Shown here piece after piece: positions 2,363 through 21,951 of a DNA stretch of 22,945 nt (within the stretch, counting starts at the first letter, position 1; each line of letters opens with the position of its first letter). The notes under the pieces are model-generated. The model did not search any database, was not told the DNA's origin, and saw only the letters and a program-made list of their open reading frames with translations. Made by a program: the position numbers and the translations under genes. Source of the stretch: Candidatus Gracilibacteria bacterium CG2_30_37_12 (GTDB lineage: Bacteria > Patescibacteriota > Gracilibacteria > BD1-5 > UBA2023); assembly GCA_001873165.1 (NCBI GenBank), contig MNYO01000050.1, positions 1 through 22,945 of the forward strand, read 5' to 3'.

Positions 2363-4522
2363 ATGAATGCTTATAAAAATATCAAAAATATAGTTTTAGG
2401 AATATGCTCTTTCGGATATATATTTTCTCTTTCTACCCTAACATATGCGGAAGTAATCGGAGATTCACATACAGGAATGGACAAAATTATTCAAGTAATT
2501 AATAGTGATGAGTGACTCAAAAATAACATGGAAAATAAGAATAATCCTGTGACACAGAGCGATATAGATGCTGGAGCAACAAACGCCAATTGGATGAATA
2601 AGATTATTATTTACTCAATAAAAGCAACGGGGGTTGCCAATGATGGAGCGATCAATACCGCTGATGCACGAGATCTCAATGATTTTATCTACAAGAAATT
2701 TTACACTACTTGGAAAAATCTTCATGGACTCGATGATCCCAAAAATAAAATCGAAACGGGATATCACCGAATTCAAAATGATGGCGGAAATACGACTATG
2801 TATGGTGAAAATGCCATAAATACGGTGTTTGATGGGATCTATCATCTCGGATACGAAAGTAGTGAGAGTAATAATCTCCTCAATGAAAATGGGAATAATA
2901 ATGCCACTTTTACGACCGTAGGATTTTGGATGAGTGATTTTTTGAAAGATAAACTAGCGAATGGAAGTCTCAAATGACCAGATGAGAAAAATATTGTTTG
3001 AGTTACTAATACTGGACTTGATCAGATTATAAATATCATAAAAGATGATCCGGGAGTAGCTCTCCGGGTTTCCACTAGCCATATACGAGATGGAGCAAAT
3101 GCTGCAAACGAGATGAATAAAATTATTATCACTTCTATAAAAGCCACGGGGATTGCTAATGATGGAGAGATAAATACAGCTGATGCCCGAGAACTCAATG
3201 ACTATATTTTTAAAAATTATCATAATAAATGGATAATACTTCATGGGGATGATAGTCAAATCACTTCTCCAAATACAGGAAAGAAAATCACTCTAGAAAC
3301 AGGATATCACCTCATCCAAAACGATGGATGAGTGACACAAATATTCGGGATAAATGCGATAAATACGGTGTTTGATGATATTTACCATCTCGGATTTGCA
3401 TCGAGTAAAAATAATCTCAAGAATGAAGATGGAAATGGAAATGCACAATTTTCTTCTATCTGATTCTATCTCAATTATCTCCTCGAAAACGATCTCAAAA
3501 ATGGAAGTCTCAAAAATGGAGCGATTCAGGAAATCAAAGGGACAACCAATACAGGACTCGATAAAATTATAGAATATCTCAAGACCGATGTTGGACTGAG
3601 TCAAAATGTAAAAACTTCCGATATGCTCGTTGGAGCAAAATCTGCTGACGGTATGAATAAAATCCTCATAGAGGCATTCAAAAAAACCGGAGTAACCAAT
3701 GATGGAAATATTTCAGAAACCGATATACGAGAAATTAACCTCTTTATCACGAAAAATTATCTCCCAAAATGGGCAAATCTCCATGGAGATGATGAAACGG
3801 CTGGTGGAGAAACAGGATTCCATCTCGTTCAAAACGATGGAGCGTCCAAACAGATGTTCGGAAAAAATGCTGTTAATACGGTGTTTGATGGAATCTATCA
3901 TCTCGGATTTCTCACCACCGATAAAAATCGACTAAAGAATGAAGATGAAAATGCTAATGCTTCATTTAAAGATGTAGCTCTTTGGCTTGATGGTCTGATG
4001 TGAGATGATATACGAAGCAATACGGCTATTAAAAATGTAGAATTTAAATGACTCGATGTTGCTTCTGGAGACTGGTATATGCTCCCAAATGGCTTCAAAG
4101 GATGAAATTTTGAAGCCAATGGGATTGCTATTCTAAGTGATAAAACAGTAAAAAATAACTCTATAATACATGTCACAATAAATGCAACCGCGGATGGAAG
4201 TTATCAAAATGGATTCATCGTCTTTGATTACGTTTCCCCCGATGAATTTAAATATGTCTGAGCAAGAATATGAGGAAAATATTGGGTCATAGGACAATAC
4301 AAAAATGGAAGATATGCAGATCTCAAGACCTTTAAAGACGCACTAGAAACTAGAAAAAATTATAGACTATCGATAAGTGTTATCGGAAGTTCTATCATTC
4401 TCAATGTAGATTCTGTAGAAAAAATTCGATATACTTTTACAAAACCATTCAACGAGAAAATATGATTGGCCATAGAAAGATCCTCTATTGAATTTACAGA
4501 CATTAATATTGTAAATAAGTAA
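2363..4522 (+). CDS. Secreted triple-repeat protein with dockerin-like calcium loops and a C-terminal lectin-like domain
   Basis: The protein has 719 residues, with 11 UGA-Gly codons that split it into fragments under the standard code. Residues 1-33 look like a signal peptide (basic MNAYKNIKN, hydrophobic core, ending TYA). Three homologous units of about 180 residues begin at TGMD/TGLD (residues 37, 217, 397). Each carries M-N-K-I, a loop of the form NDGxINTADxRxLNxxI resembling an EF-hand/dockerin calcium loop, then LHGxDD, ETGYHxIQNDG, NTVFDGIYHLGF and a second Asn/Asp-rich loop (NEDGNANA). The final ~165 residues (DWYMLPNG, FIVFDYVSPDEFKYVG, KYWVIGQY) look like a concanavalin-type beta-sandwich. 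Similar repeat and sandwich segments occur in calcium-binding secreted proteins of other bacteria (recalled, not searched). Probable role is extracellular adhesion or carbohydrate binding; no catalytic motif is seen. TAA stop, then a bidirectional terminator. Confidence 0.82.
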
Positions 4523-11755: not shown

Positions 11756-14290
11756 ATGAAACGTCTTTCTTTATATATAGCACTACTTTGTAATGTACTT
11801 GGTGCAAGTATGTCAATTTCTTTTGCGGCAGTATCAAGTACTGCTCCGATTATAGGAACAGCTACTTGAGAGAATGCTGGAATTTTAACATTCAATTATG
11901 AACTATGACTTCCGGGTCCTAATGAAGTATCTCTCAATGGAAATACACTTGTATTTACTGGAAATTTTTGGTCTGAAAATGCAGGTTGGTGTACTTTTAG
12001 TGGACTTGGCGTCAATGGAGCTCAGCTAACTGGTGTAGTAAATATTATGCCTATGACAGGATTTGCATGGTGTGAAAATGCTGGATGGGTTTCATTTAAT
12101 CCCAAAAACAATATAGACTCCACTATATTTAGTAATTCTGATGCATTTTTTGATAAAGCAAGTGGATTATTTCATGGATATGCTTGGAGTGAAAATCTTG
12201 GATGGATTAATATGGAAGGTCTTATGTCAGATATAACTCCTCCAGCTTTTACTAATTTTAAACCTTTTACAGCAAATGCCTCAAAAGTATTTACTATGAT
12301 CGATCCCTCTCCTATTGTCCCATCAGGTGGAACCTATGACTTTGCAGTGGAAAATTGGGATACTACTGCTATCATACACACATGATCTACTAATGGAAGT
12401 TTCACTCATGATTTTCGTCAGGCAAAATCCTATGCACTTACTATAACTGATCCATTTGGGAATAGTACCACTGGAAATGTACAAGTAGTAGCAGATGTGC
12501 CAGCTGATATTATTACTTCCCCAATTGCTTGATTTATCACTAATGGAGCTGCATCAACTTATACTAGTACTTTTGCAAATTCTGTTGTAGCAGATGCAAC
12601 CGCTGTTCATAACATGGATGTGAAACTTCGTGATCAATATGGAAACCCTATCATCAACGAGCCAGGCATTAAAACTGTCAATGTTCGTGTGGCGTTTAAT
12701 AATAATACTGATAAAAATCAATTACTTTCCATTGGAGGAATAATTGGTGATGCAATCCAGTTCCCAAGTACTACTTTTAGTGCACTCTCTTTCTTGAGTG
12801 GATCGGTCGGTCTTGATAATAATACCTCAGGAAACTATTCTCTCAATATTTCCTCATATGCACCGACAAAAACAGGATATAGCTTTACAAATCAAAATGA
12901 TATATCACTTCAGAAGTTGAGTTATGAAGTGATAGCAGACATGGGAAATACGGGAGTTGGTGAAATTATAGAAACGGATATCAAAAACAAAATAGGGACT
13001 AATAATCTCAAATTCTCTCCAGCATTTTATGTAGGCAGTGTAAATAATGTGGATAATTGGAATATCATTCAGGGGTATGATAGTAATTTTACTGCGTCGC
13101 TTTTAACTGGCACAACTGTTGCTCTTACGAATCCACAAGTACGACATATCTTAGATATCGATACCAATACACTTATGTCTTACCAAAATCCGATTGTTAT
13201 AGGCGGTGGAACGGAAGTTTGTAATGGATATAGGAAAACTGTTACGACTTTCAATGGATCATATACTTCTACTAGTCCTTCATGTAGTCGTCCTGATTCT
13301 TCGAATATTTTGATGAATTCTGTACCTTTCGCAAGTAATATGACATTCTCTTGGAAACCGACTATCATTTATGCTGCACCAGCTAACAGTATTGTAAAAT
13401 ATGCATCTGAAATTTCTTACACAAATGGTTCAGCGAATGTTGCGTATCCATCCTATAATCGTTCCAATAGTTCAGCATTAACAGCGAATGGAACAGTTAT
13501 GGCTCTCAATGCAACAAATGCAGGATCGGGGATTATTAATCAGGCTGTGAAAATTCTCGGTATGAGTAACTCTCGTAATACTATAGATGTTCTTAATGGG
13601 AATAATACGAATGCAGTAGGATCTCTGACCCGTGTCGATATCAAAAATACTATACATAAAAATGTAGAAATTATGACTCGATGAGGAGTTCCTCCAAATG
13701 CCAACTATAAAGTATATACTGGAAATAAAACTATTTCTTCTTGGCCAGATATGACAAAAGATACCATTATTATACAATGAGGAGATCTTATAATTGATGG
13801 TGATATTCTCAATACTACAGCAAATATACATGGGATTATTGTTCTCCAGGATGCAACTGGAAATGGTGGAAATATCTATATTAAAAAGAATGTTTCTAAT
13901 ATCGCGGCAGTGCTCTTTTCTGACAAGAGTATTATTTCAGGAGATTCTACTGCACAACCATCTTTGAAATATTATTCTGATATCTCTCCAAGTGCTCAAA
14001 CTGCTACAGGACAACTTTTTCTTGAAGGATCTATTATCTCAGACAATACGATTGGTTGAGCTTCTATGACTCCACTCAAATGTCCTTATGGAGCAAATAC
14101 TTGTACAAGTCAGGAAGCAAAACGATATGATCTCAATTACTTCCGATTCTATTCTGGCATAGGAACATCGAGTCTTGGAGCCTCACTTAATCCAGCCGTT
14201 CCAGTAGGTTCTGAAACATATCCGTTTGTTATAAAATATGATACTCGTCTCCAGACTGCACCACCCCCTGGTTTTAGTATGCCACAATAA
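11756..14290 (+). CDS. Large exported surface protein with three WxENxGW motifs
   Basis: The protein has 844 residues with seven UGA-Gly codons. The signal peptide is residues 1-24 (MKRLSLYIALLCNVLGASMSISFAA). Residues about 68-155 hold three copies of an aromatic motif: FWSENAGWCTF, FAWCENAGWVSF and YAWSENLGWINM. The next ~80 residues are Ig-like (SDITPPAFTNF...ALTITDPFGNSTTG). The middle is a long beta-rich Asn/Ser/Thr-rich region. Near the C-terminus GGDLIIDGDI...GIIVLQDATGNGGNIYIKKNV and QLFLEGSIISDNTIGG look like a short right-handed beta-helix, followed by a Cys-containing end (LKCPYGANTC, RYDLNYFRFYSG). Motifs like YAWSENxGW are familiar from surface proteins of other Patescibacteria (recalled, not searched). 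Probably cell-surface structure or attachment; no enzyme motif. Follows the Cys-pair gene in one operon. Stop TAA. Confidence 0.78.
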
Positions 14291-16734: not shown

Positions 16735-17910
16735 TTAGAGAATATGAGGTATGGGTGGAAGGAATTTATTAAGAGTATCATTTATCTTGTGAGCAATATC
16801 TGGATTCTTATCTTTTGGTCATATAGTATATTTCGCTATTTTATTCTTATTAAAATCATGGAATGTAATGATGATATTTCCGCTATACATTTTCTTCACT
16901 TTCATAGAAATAGGACTATCTAGAGAAGTAGATATACCATGTTGATGTGCAATACTTTCTATCTCTTCCACCTGAGTAAGTTGATAAATAGAATCTGCTA
17001 CCCATTTTCTCATTCATACTTCTGTAAGACGATTTTTAAATTTGGGACTATCTGCATAAAAACCGAGAGATTTTTTTCCATTATACTCTACGTAAACAAG
17101 TACCCGCCCGCCTTTATCTTCTCGTAATTTGACTTGCAAACTTGTAGGAAATTCCTTTACTACTTCATCTCGTATACTTTTTACATCTGCAAATAAAGTA
17201 GAGTTATAAACATCTGTATTCTGTGTCTTTTTTTGAATAGTTTTTAAATTATTTGATTCATTCGGAGATATATCTACTCCTCATATATCTTTCTTCTGTT
17301 TATCAGGCAAGGCAATAAGTTCATTATTTTTCGCTATCCGTTCCTGAAGAGTAATAATCTCTTTCTGAATATCATTCAATCTCTGAACTCTTTTTAATTC
17401 CTGAACTTGTTCCTTTATCACTCAAATACTTTTCTCTCCTTCTTGGATGCGATTATATCATGTATCACTATCTCCGAATACTTTTTCTACAGATCAAGAA
17501 ACCCATTTTTTTAATCAGGACTCTGGTACTACTTGTTCATAAATAGTTGCTCCAGTTGCTCATACCACTACTCATAAAAATGCGATGCCTACTTGACTCT
17601 TCAATCGAGACAATTTAGAAGGTTGCTCGATTAATGGTGGAATAGTATCAATAAACGATTGCTGAAATTCCACTGCTGTAATAGTTTCATTATTGTTTTT
17701 ATGTTCTTGAATATACGCCTTCTCTGCCTCACATACCTCATGGAGGGTATTTGTTACTGCTATCCGATCTTGATCATTTTTAGCTAACTTTATCATCTCT
17801 TCTAGTTCGTGAATTCTTTTTGAAAACTCCACTAACATAGCTTCATATATGTCTGCAGAAATAAGACCCTTATAACGTTCTCGTCTTCAATATCAACATT
17901 GCAATGTCAT
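16735..17910 (-). CDS. Single-pass membrane protein with coiled coil, unknown function
   Basis: The protein has 391 residues with 11 UGA-Gly codons, so no standard-code frame covers more than a fragment. The N-terminal ~100 residues are charged and helical (SKRIHELEEMIKLAKNDQ), preceded by a small Cys/Arg/Gly tip (MTLQCGYGRRERYKG). One membrane segment, about 105-123 (SQVGIAFLGVVVGATGATI), has two of its glycines as UGA. A coiled coil follows (about 160-215, IKEQVQELKRVQRLNDIQKEIITLQERI). The C-terminal domain is alpha/beta (KLREDKGGRVLVYVEYNGKKSLGFYAD, MRKWVADSIYQLTQ). I do not recognise the family. ATG at 17910 is in frame with the later one at 17838; the longer form is chosen because it stays coding-like. 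Stop TAA. Confidence 0.75.
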
Positions 17911-18118: not shown

Positions 18119-19702
18119 ATGCAAAAAAAACAACTTTCCTTACTCAGTATACTTTGGATCTGTAATCTGATTCTTCTTATTACTTATTTCATAGGCTGAC
18201 AGAGTATCTCCTTTTTGAAATCTTCTGTGCTGGAATATAACAATATTACCTCTGATCCATTTGATGGAGCAGTTTCACCAATCGCCTATGTGCCAGATTG
18301 GTGAAAATCGGAGAATATGAATAAAGCTCGGCTCTTTGAAAGTTTTAGTATCGCCGATTTTATAGAGATTCCAGAATACGATATTGGACTCTTATCTGAC
18401 ACTCTTCAACAAACAACTTCTGCTTCCATTCTTCGTTACACGTATCCCGTTGTATATATGGGGAGTTATCGTGGAAATTACATAGAGTACGATGGAAGTC
18501 ATCCGGCAGTAGATATCCGCGCTCCTATTTGAACTCCCGTGGTTTCTATCGCTAACGGAGTCGTGATAAAAGTAAAAAATACCGACACAGGTGATGGAAA
18601 ATACGTAATTATCCGCCATGATAATGTAGATGTAAATGGTGTAAAAGAAACTCTCTATTCTGGATATGAGCATCTTTCGGAAATAATTGCTGCAGAAGGA
18701 ACCAAAATTAGACGTGGGGATGTTCTTGGAAAAATAGGAATGACCGGAATTACCACGACTCCTCATTTACATTTTCAGATAGATAAAAGTACTTCTCCAT
18801 TTCATATGTACTGGCCATATACTTTCCAGGAAGCAGCCGATCTTGGTCTCGATTTCTTCGGAGCAATCAATGTTGGACTTGGGAAAGAAAATGCGATTCG
18901 ATACACGATAAATCCTATGGATTTCATAAAAAATAATAGATTTCTCGGTTCTGCTCCACAAGAGAGAAACATCGCAACAGTAGTCAAGCAAGAACCTTTA
19001 GTGGTATCTTCACAAATCGTAGCCGACACAACCATCCCAGAAAATGGAAATATTGTCACCGTTGTACCAAAATCAGAAAATATTATTACTCCTGAAGTTA
19101 TTTCACAACCAGAAATGGTAACTTCTCGAGTAAATATTTCTCCGCGTTTTACTTCAGATGCAACACATATTTTCAGTGATATACCTACAGATTCTCCATT
19201 CTATGACTCTACGAAATATCTTTCAGAAGCAGGTGTTGTACAGGGATATTCCGATGGAGGATTTCATCCAAGCGAATATATGTCTCGAGGAGAAGCTATT
19301 CTGATTTATGACCGACTCTTTAAGAGCAATACATTGTATACAAATATTGATTTTCCTTTTCTCGACATCCTTCCATCGGACGAGCTTGCGCCAGCTCTTA
19401 TGCGAGCTTTCACACGCAATATTGTGACTGGTAGTAATTATTTCCGACCCAATGATTCTCTCACGAGAGCAGAAACTATCACACTTCTTGTGCGATCTTC
19501 TGGAATTCCTGTCGAGACACTGAAATATTCTCTCTTTTATGACGTAACCACACAAAATTCTCACGCAAAATATATCAATACTTTTGCTCGGTATCTCGGA
19601 ATCCCCAGTGGAAATTTTGAACCAAACAAATCTATTACACGCGGAGAACTCGCAAAGATACTCTATGCATTTGACCAAAAAAAGAAAAAAGAGAGCAACT
19701 AG
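18119..19702 (+). CDS. Exported LytM/M23-fold metallopeptidase with three S-layer homology domains
   Basis: The protein has 527 residues with three UGA-Gly codons (FIGGQ, DWGKSE, APIGTPV). A hydrophobic segment at about 8-26 directs export. The M23 domain (about 95-270) keeps the zinc/active-site set: SHPAVD (H128, D132), GYEHLSE and TPHLHFQ (H216, H218). It should therefore be able to cut peptidoglycan peptides, or act as a LytM activator. After a Pro/Val-rich linker come three SLH domains: IFSDIPTDSPFYD...GFHPSEYMSRGEA, FLDILPSD...YFRPNDSLTRAE and FYDVTTQN...NFEPNKSITRGELA. SLH domains bind secondary cell-wall polymers, so this is a wall-anchored enzyme. Stop TAG overlaps the stop of tlyA on the other strand. 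Confidence 0.92.
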
Positions 19703-19715
19703 CTCTCTTTTTTTT
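19685..19715. terminator. Bidirectional terminator embedded in the overlapping gene ends
   Basis: A 12-bp stem (19685-19696, 19702-19713; AAAAAAGAGAGC with its complement) with loop AACTA is followed by more T. The loop and stem edge contain the stop codons of both convergent genes. Confidence 0.9.
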
Positions 19716-20421
19716 GTAGCCATAACAAATATTCTTTATTACCCGCTTCTCATATGAGAGACGAAAGGGAAATCTTTTTTATAAGAACTCCTTTTTCTCT
19801 GAGTAATTCTTGAAACTCTGCAAATCTTTTCGTAACAATTGCCTCAGATTTTGGAACTCCTGTTTTTCGAAGATGCTCTGAACCTACCTCAAACTGCGGC
19901 TTATAGAGAATAATAATTTCTGTTTTATTATCTGCGAGAGCGAGAATAGAATCTATCAGTTTCATGAGACTAATAAAGGAAATATCTCCCACGATAATAT
20001 CAAAATGAACCGTCGTCCGAAAATATCGGATATCAGTATTTTCAAGAGCAATTACTCGAGAATCTGCCTGGAGAGAGGAATGAAGTTGAAGAGTACCAAC
20101 ATCCACCGTGTGAACCGATTTTATTCATCGGGATAAAAGCACTTGGGTAAATCCTCCTGTCGATGCACCAATATCAAGTCCTGACATATTTGTAACATCC
20201 AAATTGATCTCATCGAGAAAAGTATCGAGTTTTATCGCACTTCTGGAAACAAAACCTATCCTTTTATCCTCAAGCACTCGAACTATATATCATTCCTTAA
20301 CCTCATAACTTGCTTTAGTAATACATATATCATTCACAAAAACGAGTTCCTGTTCGATAAAAAACTGTGCTCGATTTCGAGTACAGTTTTTGATTTCAGT
20401 TATATATTTATCGAGACGCAT
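19699..20421 (-). CDS. tlyA: TlyA-family rRNA 2'-O-methyltransferase
   Basis: The protein has 240 residues with three UGA-Gly codons. The N-terminal S4 RNA-binding domain (1-58) starts MRLDKYITEIKNCTRNRAQFFIEQ. The FtsJ-type methyltransferase follows: SRSAIKL (catalytic Lys), GLDIGASTGGFTQVLL (SAM site), HTVDVGTLQL, VGDISFIS (Asp) and LYKPQFE (second Lys). TlyA enzymes methylate ribose in 16S and/or 23S rRNA; despite the old 'hemolysin' label, the domains indicate RNA modification. Regular family length is about 240-275. It starts 13 bases after the tandem chorismate-mutase-like gene, so the two are likely cotranscribed. ATG at 20421, stop TAG within CTAG shared with the SLH gene. Confidence 0.9.
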
Positions 20422-20434
20422 ATAGAAGAAGAAA

Positions 20435-21019
20435 TTATTGTAGAATTGTAACTACTTGAGTAGGAACTTCATAGTTCACACAACCACAATCCGATATATG
20501 AAACTTAGATTTTTTACATCGTTCTTCTACTTCGCAAGCATATTTATGAATAGTATTCCATATTATTTCGATCCATTCTTCATCTAATCATCTTTCTCTT
20601 GCCAATGACTTTCGTGTTTCTAGAACTTCTTCCCAACGCTTTGGTTGTAGTGGGGGCATGTTTTTTTCTGCTTTATATTTTCCAACTTTTTCTACTACAA
20701 CAAACCGTCTTAATAAACAATTCATAATATCTTTATCAATTTTTTGAGTTCATTCTCTTATATTCATCCATGAAAAAATATCCTTCCAAAAACTTTCTAT
20801 CCAATCTGGATCTAATCCACACTCCATAGCCCATGCTTTTCGTTCTTCAAATAAAATTCATACATCAACAGGAGTTTTATTTCCTTGAGATATAACAAAT
20901 CTTTTATGCAAGAGTCCTATGAGTCCTGGATCAATAGCATCTATTTCTTCTCGAAATCCCTTTAATACTAAATCAACAACTGGTAATATATCAGACTCAG
21001 TATTTAAATCTCATGACAT
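20435..21019 (-). CDS. Tandem chorismate-mutase-like (AroQ/CM_2-type helical) protein
   Basis: The protein has 194 residues. It is invisible to standard-code calling because four UGA codons split it, the first being codon 3 (MSG). It holds two successive all-helical units. Unit 1: LVLKGFREEIDAIDPGLIGLLHKRF, then FEERKAWAMECGLDPDWIESFW. Unit 2: IDKDIMNCLLRRFVVVEKVGKYKAEK, then QPKRWEEVLETRKSLARERGLDEEWIEIIW. This is the AroQ pattern: R/EID-ID-LL-RR, IGxYK, R..EVL, GLD..WIE.IW. Unit 2 keeps the RR and YK active-site-like positions; unit 1 lacks the Lys. The C-terminal ~25 residues contain three Cys (YACEVEERC, DCGC). It may be a true or degenerate mutase, or a CM fold used for another role. First gene of an operon with tlyA. 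Stop TAA. Confidence 0.7.
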
Positions 21020-21081: not shown

Positions 21082-21951
21082 TTATATTCTTGTTTTCATA
21101 AATTCTCTAAGTTTTGGACCAAGATCTTCTCTGTCGAGCGCGTAATCAATCGTTGCCTTCAAGAATCCGAATTTGTCTCCGGTATCATAGCGTGCTCATT
21201 CAAGTTCTAAACCATAAATATCCCGATCAGATACCATCGCTGCAAAAGCATCAGCAAGCCGGAGTTCTCCATCCTTGCTCGCTCCTCCATTGGAATGTTC
21301 AATATAATCAAAAACTTCCGGGGTAATGATGTATTTTCCTATAACTCCGAGTCGTGAGGTGGTTTCTGTCGCTTTCGGTTTTTCTAGGAATTTATCCACA
21401 AGGTGAATTCCATGTTCTGAAGAACTGGATTCAACGATACCATAGGATGAAACCATATCATCCGCTACTTTTTCGAGAGCGATAATAGGAGTACGTTTTC
21501 GCGAGAATGCCTCAACAAGCTGAGTTGCTCCTCATTTCTCTCCTTTGATAAGATCATCTCCAAAGAGCACGAGACAGGGCTCATCTCCGATGAATGGTCG
21601 AGCTCGGAGAATTGCATCCCCATCTCCTCGAGGAATGGGTTGTCGTACATAGGCGATGCGAGCAAGATTTGGAATATTCTCCACCGAAGCAAGAAGTGCA
21701 TGTTTTTTCTTCTCGACCAGAGTATATTCGAGCTCAAATGAGGTATCAAAATGATCCTCAATCGAGTGTTTCCCTCGCCCTGTTACGATAACGATATCAA
21801 TAATACCAGCAGCAACTGCCTCCTCTACGAGGTATTGGAGAACGGGTTTATCAACAATCGGGAGCATTTCCTTGGGCATGGCCTTGGTTGCCGGAAGAAA
21901 TCGGGTTCCATACCCAGCCGCCGCGATGATACATTTACGAATTTTTTGCAT
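21082..21951 (-). CDS. galU: UTP-glucose-1-phosphate uridylyltransferase
   Basis: The protein has 289 residues, the normal GalU length. It makes UDP-glucose from UTP and glucose-1-phosphate in the cytosol for glycan synthesis. The nucleotide-binding start is [30 protein letters not shown]. Later family marks are [31 protein letters not shown], the sugar-phosphate region KFLEKPK and [20 protein letters not shown]. Two UGA-Gly codons, at GEKGGATQL and LEGARYDTGD; the second is an invariant Gly. ATG at 21951, stop TAA. It can supply the glycosyltransferase at 14350-15450. Confidence 0.96.

Follow-up and report, generated by a model that had tools for sequence, protein, structure and literature searches.

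A tandem AroQ-type chorismate mutase gene in a UGA=Gly genome of Candidatus Gracilibacteria, a candidate single-chain enzyme with one active site

AroQ chorismate mutases are a textbook example of two identical chains that share an active site. The yeast AroQ beta enzyme arose by duplication, and a route to one chain with one site has been proposed for it. As described in part of PMC5526877, the pockets of E. coli chorismate mutase (EcCM) and BsCM_2 consist of Arg28, Lys39, Asp48, Arg51, Glu52 and Gln88 of one chain and Arg11 of the other. A passage of PMC10520331 describes the yeast enzyme as a 12-helix dimer in which each subunit has one catalytic centre. Here we analyze P0001, the product of a tandem gene of the AroQ/CM_2 family on contig MNYO01000050.1 of Candidatus Gracilibacteria bacterium CG2_30_37_12; the 22,945 nucleotides analyzed are called the window. 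Whereas AroQ alpha (the E. coli PheA domain, 1ECM) is a symmetric dimer of two identical chains, each a single protomer of about 90 residues, P0001 has two units fused in tandem in each chain and carries Gln, Trp, Ala and Glu at EcCM positions 48, 52, 84 and 88. AroQ beta, a class that also has allosteric sites, resembles with its one catalytic centre per longer chain what we propose for P0001, whose residue pattern appears compatible with one site per chain; the sequence matches in searches to E values of 1 and 0.1 included no yeast enzyme. AroQ gamma enzymes are exported with a signal sequence, and by eye we found no hydrophobic signal stretch at the N terminus of P0001. The family is already known; what is new is the putative fused one-site form and a pathway without its upper half. 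Searches of the open-licence literature on chorismate mutase or shikimate in Gracilibacteria or the Candidate Phyla Radiation (CPR), and on tandem, duplicated, single-chain or pseudodimer mutases, yielded no paper whose title and abstract address these points, and a term search of further papers found no mention of chorismate, prephenate or shikimate.

The first-pass annotation had proposed a hidden gene of 194 residues, interrupted by four UGA codons but readable with UGA as glycine, and had assigned it to AroQ. Both proposals were confirmed. Under translation table 25 there is one frame with TGA codons at residues 3, 54, 90 and 144, while table 11 gives only short open pieces, and Pfam CM_2 matches P0001 with an E value of 2.8e-28 (98.4 bits, cut-off 27). 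The sole NCBIfam model above cut-off was TIGR01803 (CM-like; 82.8 bits, cut-off 73.35), which is a subfamily model and no mutase equivalog. Alignments of tlyA and galU, the two genes next to it, support the reassignment of TGA. Opposite TGA codons of the window, relatives have Gly 25 times, TGA 10 times and seven other residues 17 times; where the relatives have TGA, Gly stands in the window 25 times and another residue 16 times. Trp was never found opposite TGA in these comparisons, in either direction. A single-sequence protein search with P0001 (57 candidates scored) returned, besides P0001 itself, only P0002, which is the same protein except at the TGA positions, there read as Trp.

A search of the genome located one full unit (20522-20761, 70.3 bits) and a second one in two weak pieces at 20765-20854 and 20888-20953 (jointly 32.5 bits, above cut-off), which bears out the tandem arrangement. 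Unit 2 is a complete domain. Its Arg88, Arg105, Lys116, Gln125, Arg128, Trp129, Ala161 and Glu165 align with EcCM positions 11, 28, 39, 48, 51, 52, 84 and 88, so that Arg11, Arg28, Lys39 and Arg51 are kept, with Gln at 48, Trp at 52 and Glu at 88. The three-helix AroQ fold is present, and over 91 residues the predicted model of unit 2 deviates from E. coli chorismate mutase by 1.3 A. Unit 1 aligns its Arg23 and Arg40 with Arg11 and Arg28 of EcCM, but in both alignments it lacks the stretch bearing the Lys39 and Arg51 equivalents, and position 48 is a gap in one alignment and Asp in the other. The structure model carries little information on this unit, which is poorly modelled. With unit 2 excluded, unit 1 scored 21.1 bits against a profile of single-domain relatives, a score that none of 1000 shuffles and none of 4163 background open reading frames (ORFs; 3233 scored) attained. 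For this profile, as for the residue counts below, we used 120 listed relatives of the 173 found. Judged by these alignments, unit 1 is degenerate and no second full AroQ domain. Of the two AroQ-like units first claimed, one is complete and the other is a reduced version.

We give a probability of about 0.5 to the reading that P0001 folds as a pseudodimer within a single chain and has one working site, which would convert chorismate to prephenate with substrate from outside. It would be a soluble AroQ-class mutase with two units fused head to tail. Unit 2 would give the pocket, with Arg28, Lys39, Arg51 and Glu at 88 (EcCM numbering), and unit 1, its own pocket gone, would mainly give Arg23, the Arg11 equivalent, in the role of the partner subunit of ordinary AroQ dimers. 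The resulting mixed site would turn chorismate into prephenate. Since no chorismate-making gene was found in the genome, the chorismate would be taken from outside, for example from a host or prey cell. We infer the geometry, activity and substrate supply from the residue pattern and gene content, and we consider the mechanism plausible. Arg11 of one unit lies in the same pocket as Gln88 of its partner, so the third helix of one unit should end close to where the first helix of the other begins. A head-to-tail fusion would therefore cross the first unit's pocket, and this would account for which pocket is lost.

Unit 2 could instead form an ordinary intertwined AroQ homodimer of two chains with two sites, with unit 1 vestigial or regulatory. 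Two points weigh for this: unit 2 retains the residues of a normal dimer, including its own Arg88, and unit 1 is modelled poorly. However, the arginine needed in trans is still kept by unit 1, and in the other tandems the pocket units lack their own Arg11; pairing such units in an ordinary dimer would not make up for this loss. We consider the homodimer rather unlikely.

Pocket units of these other tandems are among 78 aligned relatives, a set without matches weaker than 1e-9 and without identical rows. Arg11 is absent in six of the 78. Four are the pocket units of tandems in genomes G398, G426, G413 and G414; the other two are a short frame and a mutase-dehydratase fusion with Lys. A protein profile search yielded three proteins of the G398 type (P0003, P0005, P0006) and three of the G426 type (P0004, P0007, P0008), among which P0003 and P0004 are the genomes' own proteins found again. 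Like P0001, all six have the arginine-donor unit first and the pocket unit second; they differ from it in having other donor units, in the loss of Arg11 from the pocket unit, and in sequence (24 to 28% identity by BLASTP). In both types the arginine of the first unit is invariant and Arg11 of the second is gone. P0004 is named chorismate mutase by NCBI. In the pocket of its type, EcCM positions 28, 39, 48, 51, 84 and 88 hold the usual residues, which do not vary among sequences that share 50 and 73% identity with the first; position 52 is Arg. For the donor units of P0004 (G426) and P0007, one background ORF scores equally high, and the P0004 structure model (predicted local distance difference test, pLDDT, 55; three sequences) was not used. 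P0001 is milder than these tandems: the pocket of unit 1 is dead, and unit 2 keeps both roles.

In G413 and G414 (L101 3234-3776, L104 2817-3644), a pocket unit without Arg11 is followed by a possible, non-significant arginine-donor segment, with a score reached by 10 and 63 of 1000 shuffles and by 11 and 172 of 4163 background ORFs. The fusion order is perhaps reversed there, with the donor second, and we do not rely on this reading. In a quick FastTree phylogeny the P0001, P0004-type and P0006-type pocket units are separated from one another, but those of G413 and G414 cluster with P0005 and P0006 (0.834); by this phylogeny, a separate origin of the tandems is not established. For P0001 itself we rejected the view that the tandem simply arose by a recent internal duplication. 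With 31% identity to unit 2, unit 1 is closer to P0079, a single-domain mutase of the same genus (39% over 75 columns), and in the tree it falls with P0079, P0094 and P0098 (support 0.915), apart from unit 2, a weak placement on a very long branch. Counter to this rejection, both units share a Trp in a column where none of the 120 relatives has it.

The pocket of unit 2 is an ordinary one for its group. Among the 120 relatives, Arg11 is kept in all, position 52 is Trp in 113 and Phe in 7, and position 88 is Glu in 118 and Gln in 2. Unit 2, up to 49% identical to these proteins (n=120), carries all four residues that are invariant among them, and its Gln48, Trp52 and Glu88 match most other members of the group. 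The single-domain mutases of Candidatus Gracilibacteria (P0058, P0060, P0079 and others, so named by NCBI) have the same Trp52/Glu88 pocket type; unlike P0001, they are about 90 amino acids long and have no second unit. The mutase of G432 equals unit 2 at 8/8 compared active-site positions, and those of G409 and G410 at 7/8, with Ser for Ala at 84. All three genes share a contig with genes for chorismate synthase and prephenate dehydratase (PDT), and in G409 and G410 these genes and one for prephenate dehydrogenase (PDH) are near. A Labilibaculum protein (L004), by eye a DAHP synthase-mutase fusion, has Gln48, Trp52 and Gln88. The pocket type is therefore no mark of lost function, and the different function suggested by the first-pass annotation is not required. 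In family f155 (e.g., L093 2827-7954, L078 3006-9656), the single-domain mutase recurs in one block together with an HtpX-like M48 peptidase, a 5'-3' exonuclease and a protein with SLH domains; in many cases a class II tRNA synthetase is close by.

P0001 might nevertheless carry out another reaction of the fold, such as that of an isochorismate pyruvate lyase (PchB-like), or bind a chorismate-like ligand without catalysis. PchB gave the closest solved structures in the single-sequence search (2.5e-6), and the one NCBIfam model above cut-off is not specific for mutases. PchB also resembles P0001 in having a residue other than Glu at position 52, where, according to PMC12329711, Glu clearly predominates in AroQ mutases and PchB has Val. 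The genome in which P0001 is encoded yielded no chorismate synthase. On the other hand, PchB is a single domain, and its equivalog model PRK07075 gives P0001 66 bits against a cut-off of 126. The Trp-type pocket also occurs in G409, G410 and G432, near chorismate synthase and PDT, and the Chorismate_bind enzyme needed for isochorismate was not found in the genome. We consider another reaction unlikely.

We then consider the pathway around the proposed pseudodimer. The genome that encodes it, 946 kb long and 90.5% complete, yielded no chorismate synthase, Chorismate_bind enzyme, dehydroquinate synthase, PDT or PDH. The expectation that the shikimate pathway would be lacking thus agrees with the data, in that its upper part was not detected. 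Across the 77 genomes of the order, matches over cut-off were found for CM_2 in 44, PDT in 45, PDH in 28, Chorismate_bind in 15, chorismate synthase in 9 and dehydroquinate synthase in 7. The 44 mutase genomes do not include G398, whose tandem is below cut-off, nor G400 and G401, where the frames with the weak matches were judged by eye not to be mutases. Chorismate synthase is missing from 36 of the 44; 27 of these have PDT or PDH and 9 have neither, and in G442, assembled as one contig, the mutase occurs without chorismate synthase, PDT or PDH. In the phylum sample outside the order, 23/43 mutase genomes have chorismate synthase, versus 8/44 within it (p 0.0008, kinship uncorrected). For the mutase together with PDT or PDH, p is 0.01 (0.045 among genomes of 90% completeness or more; kinship likewise uncorrected). 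In the order the mutase, PDT and PDH are widespread, and chorismate synthase and dehydroquinate synthase rare, the picture of aromatic amino acid synthesis stripped of its upper half; assembly gaps are an unlikely cause of such uneven loss. The gene counts suggest, as the simplest reading, the use of scavenged chorismate or prephenate.

Some of the counts weigh against this scheme. The mutase is present in 8 of the 9 synthase genomes (Fisher p 0.07, and 0.23 among genomes of 90% completeness or more); the two tend to co-occur, and the mutase is therefore not free of the pathway's history. In genus g332 (G418-G425, 8 genomes) we found neither CM_2 nor chorismate synthase, while PDT and PDH are both present in the same 7/8 genomes. 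Simple chorismate salvage does not explain this pattern, and g332 and the nine mutase-alone genomes fit no one simple scheme. We advance a wider proposal only tentatively, as something we doubt more than we believe: that in this UGA=Gly order tandem AroQ fusion made single-chain split-site enzymes, each with a donor and a pocket unit, several times, and that such enzymes, together with the single-domain ones, act in an aromatic amino acid pathway that no longer has an upper half and is fed by chorismate or prephenate from other cells.

The features of the locus are collected in Table 1. The first-pass annotation had read the mutase gene and tlyA, which lies 13 bp downstream, as one operon and had called the pairing unexplained. 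We surveyed tlyA in the family, where 14 relatives had a match (12/27 family genomes have none at 1e-10), with flanks of up to 1.5 kb, some ended by contig ends. No mutase match was found at any of the 14 loci within these flanks, so that we rejected a functional tie with tlyA and regard it as a neighbour only. The recurring pair is galU-tlyA. The two directly adjoin in 5 of the 14 relatives (G402, G405, G381, G382, G391; aligned gaps 4 to 29 bp), in G397 about 1.4 kb separate tlyA from an end of galU, and in the remaining 8 no galU match was found within the fetched flanks. Here the two genes stand 660 bp apart, with the mutase in the gap, which looks like an insertion between galU and tlyA.

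Table 1. Coordinates of the mutase gene, its parts and its neighbours in the window
Feature	Coordinates	Strand	Basis
Tandem AroQ-type chorismate mutase gene (P0001)	20435..21019	-	TGA read as Gly, 194 aa
Unit 1, degenerate, about residues 18-79	20783..20968	-	residue equivalences from alignment
Unit 2, a complete AroQ domain (roughly residues 83-170)	20510..20773	-	
Arg23 codon in unit 1, proposed donated arginine (EcCM Arg11 equivalent)	20951..20953	-	alignment; role inferred
tlyA, 23S rRNA cytidine 2'-O-methyltransferase family	19699..20421	-	NF049952 3.5e-71, 239.4 bits (just below cut-off 250)
galU, UTP-glucose-1-phosphate uridylyltransferase family, upstream	21082..21951	-	TIGR01099 2.5e-93, 312.4 bits (just below cut-off 326.8)

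tlyA also matches Pfam FtsJ and S4, both over cut-off. The insertion raises the question of whether P0001 is a decaying acquired gene, unused and heading for loss. A mutase sits between galU and tlyA in only 1/15 family tlyA loci, that of its own genome; its guanine-plus-cytosine (GC) content is 0.316, compared with 0.441 for galU (tlyA has 0.358); neither an upstream nor a downstream enzyme of the pathway was found in the genome; and unit 1 lacks part of its domain. Yet the 194-codon frame is intact, unit 2 retains the four residues invariant in 120/120 relatives, and the GC content is unexceptional for the window, in which 53 of 448 segments of 585 bp are as low or lower. Decay is, in our view, very improbable. 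Elsewhere in the window, three UGA=Gly frames of 719, 844 and 391 amino acids, at 2363-4522 (+), 11756-14290 (+) and 16735-17910 (-), have no Pfam match over cut-off, and a Peptidase M23 gene with three SLH stretches at 18119-19702 (+) is convergent with tlyA.

The tandem genes resemble stages toward an enzyme with one chain and one site. The order-wide gene pattern makes a testable prediction: these bacteria would take up a pathway intermediate, and not only finished amino acids.
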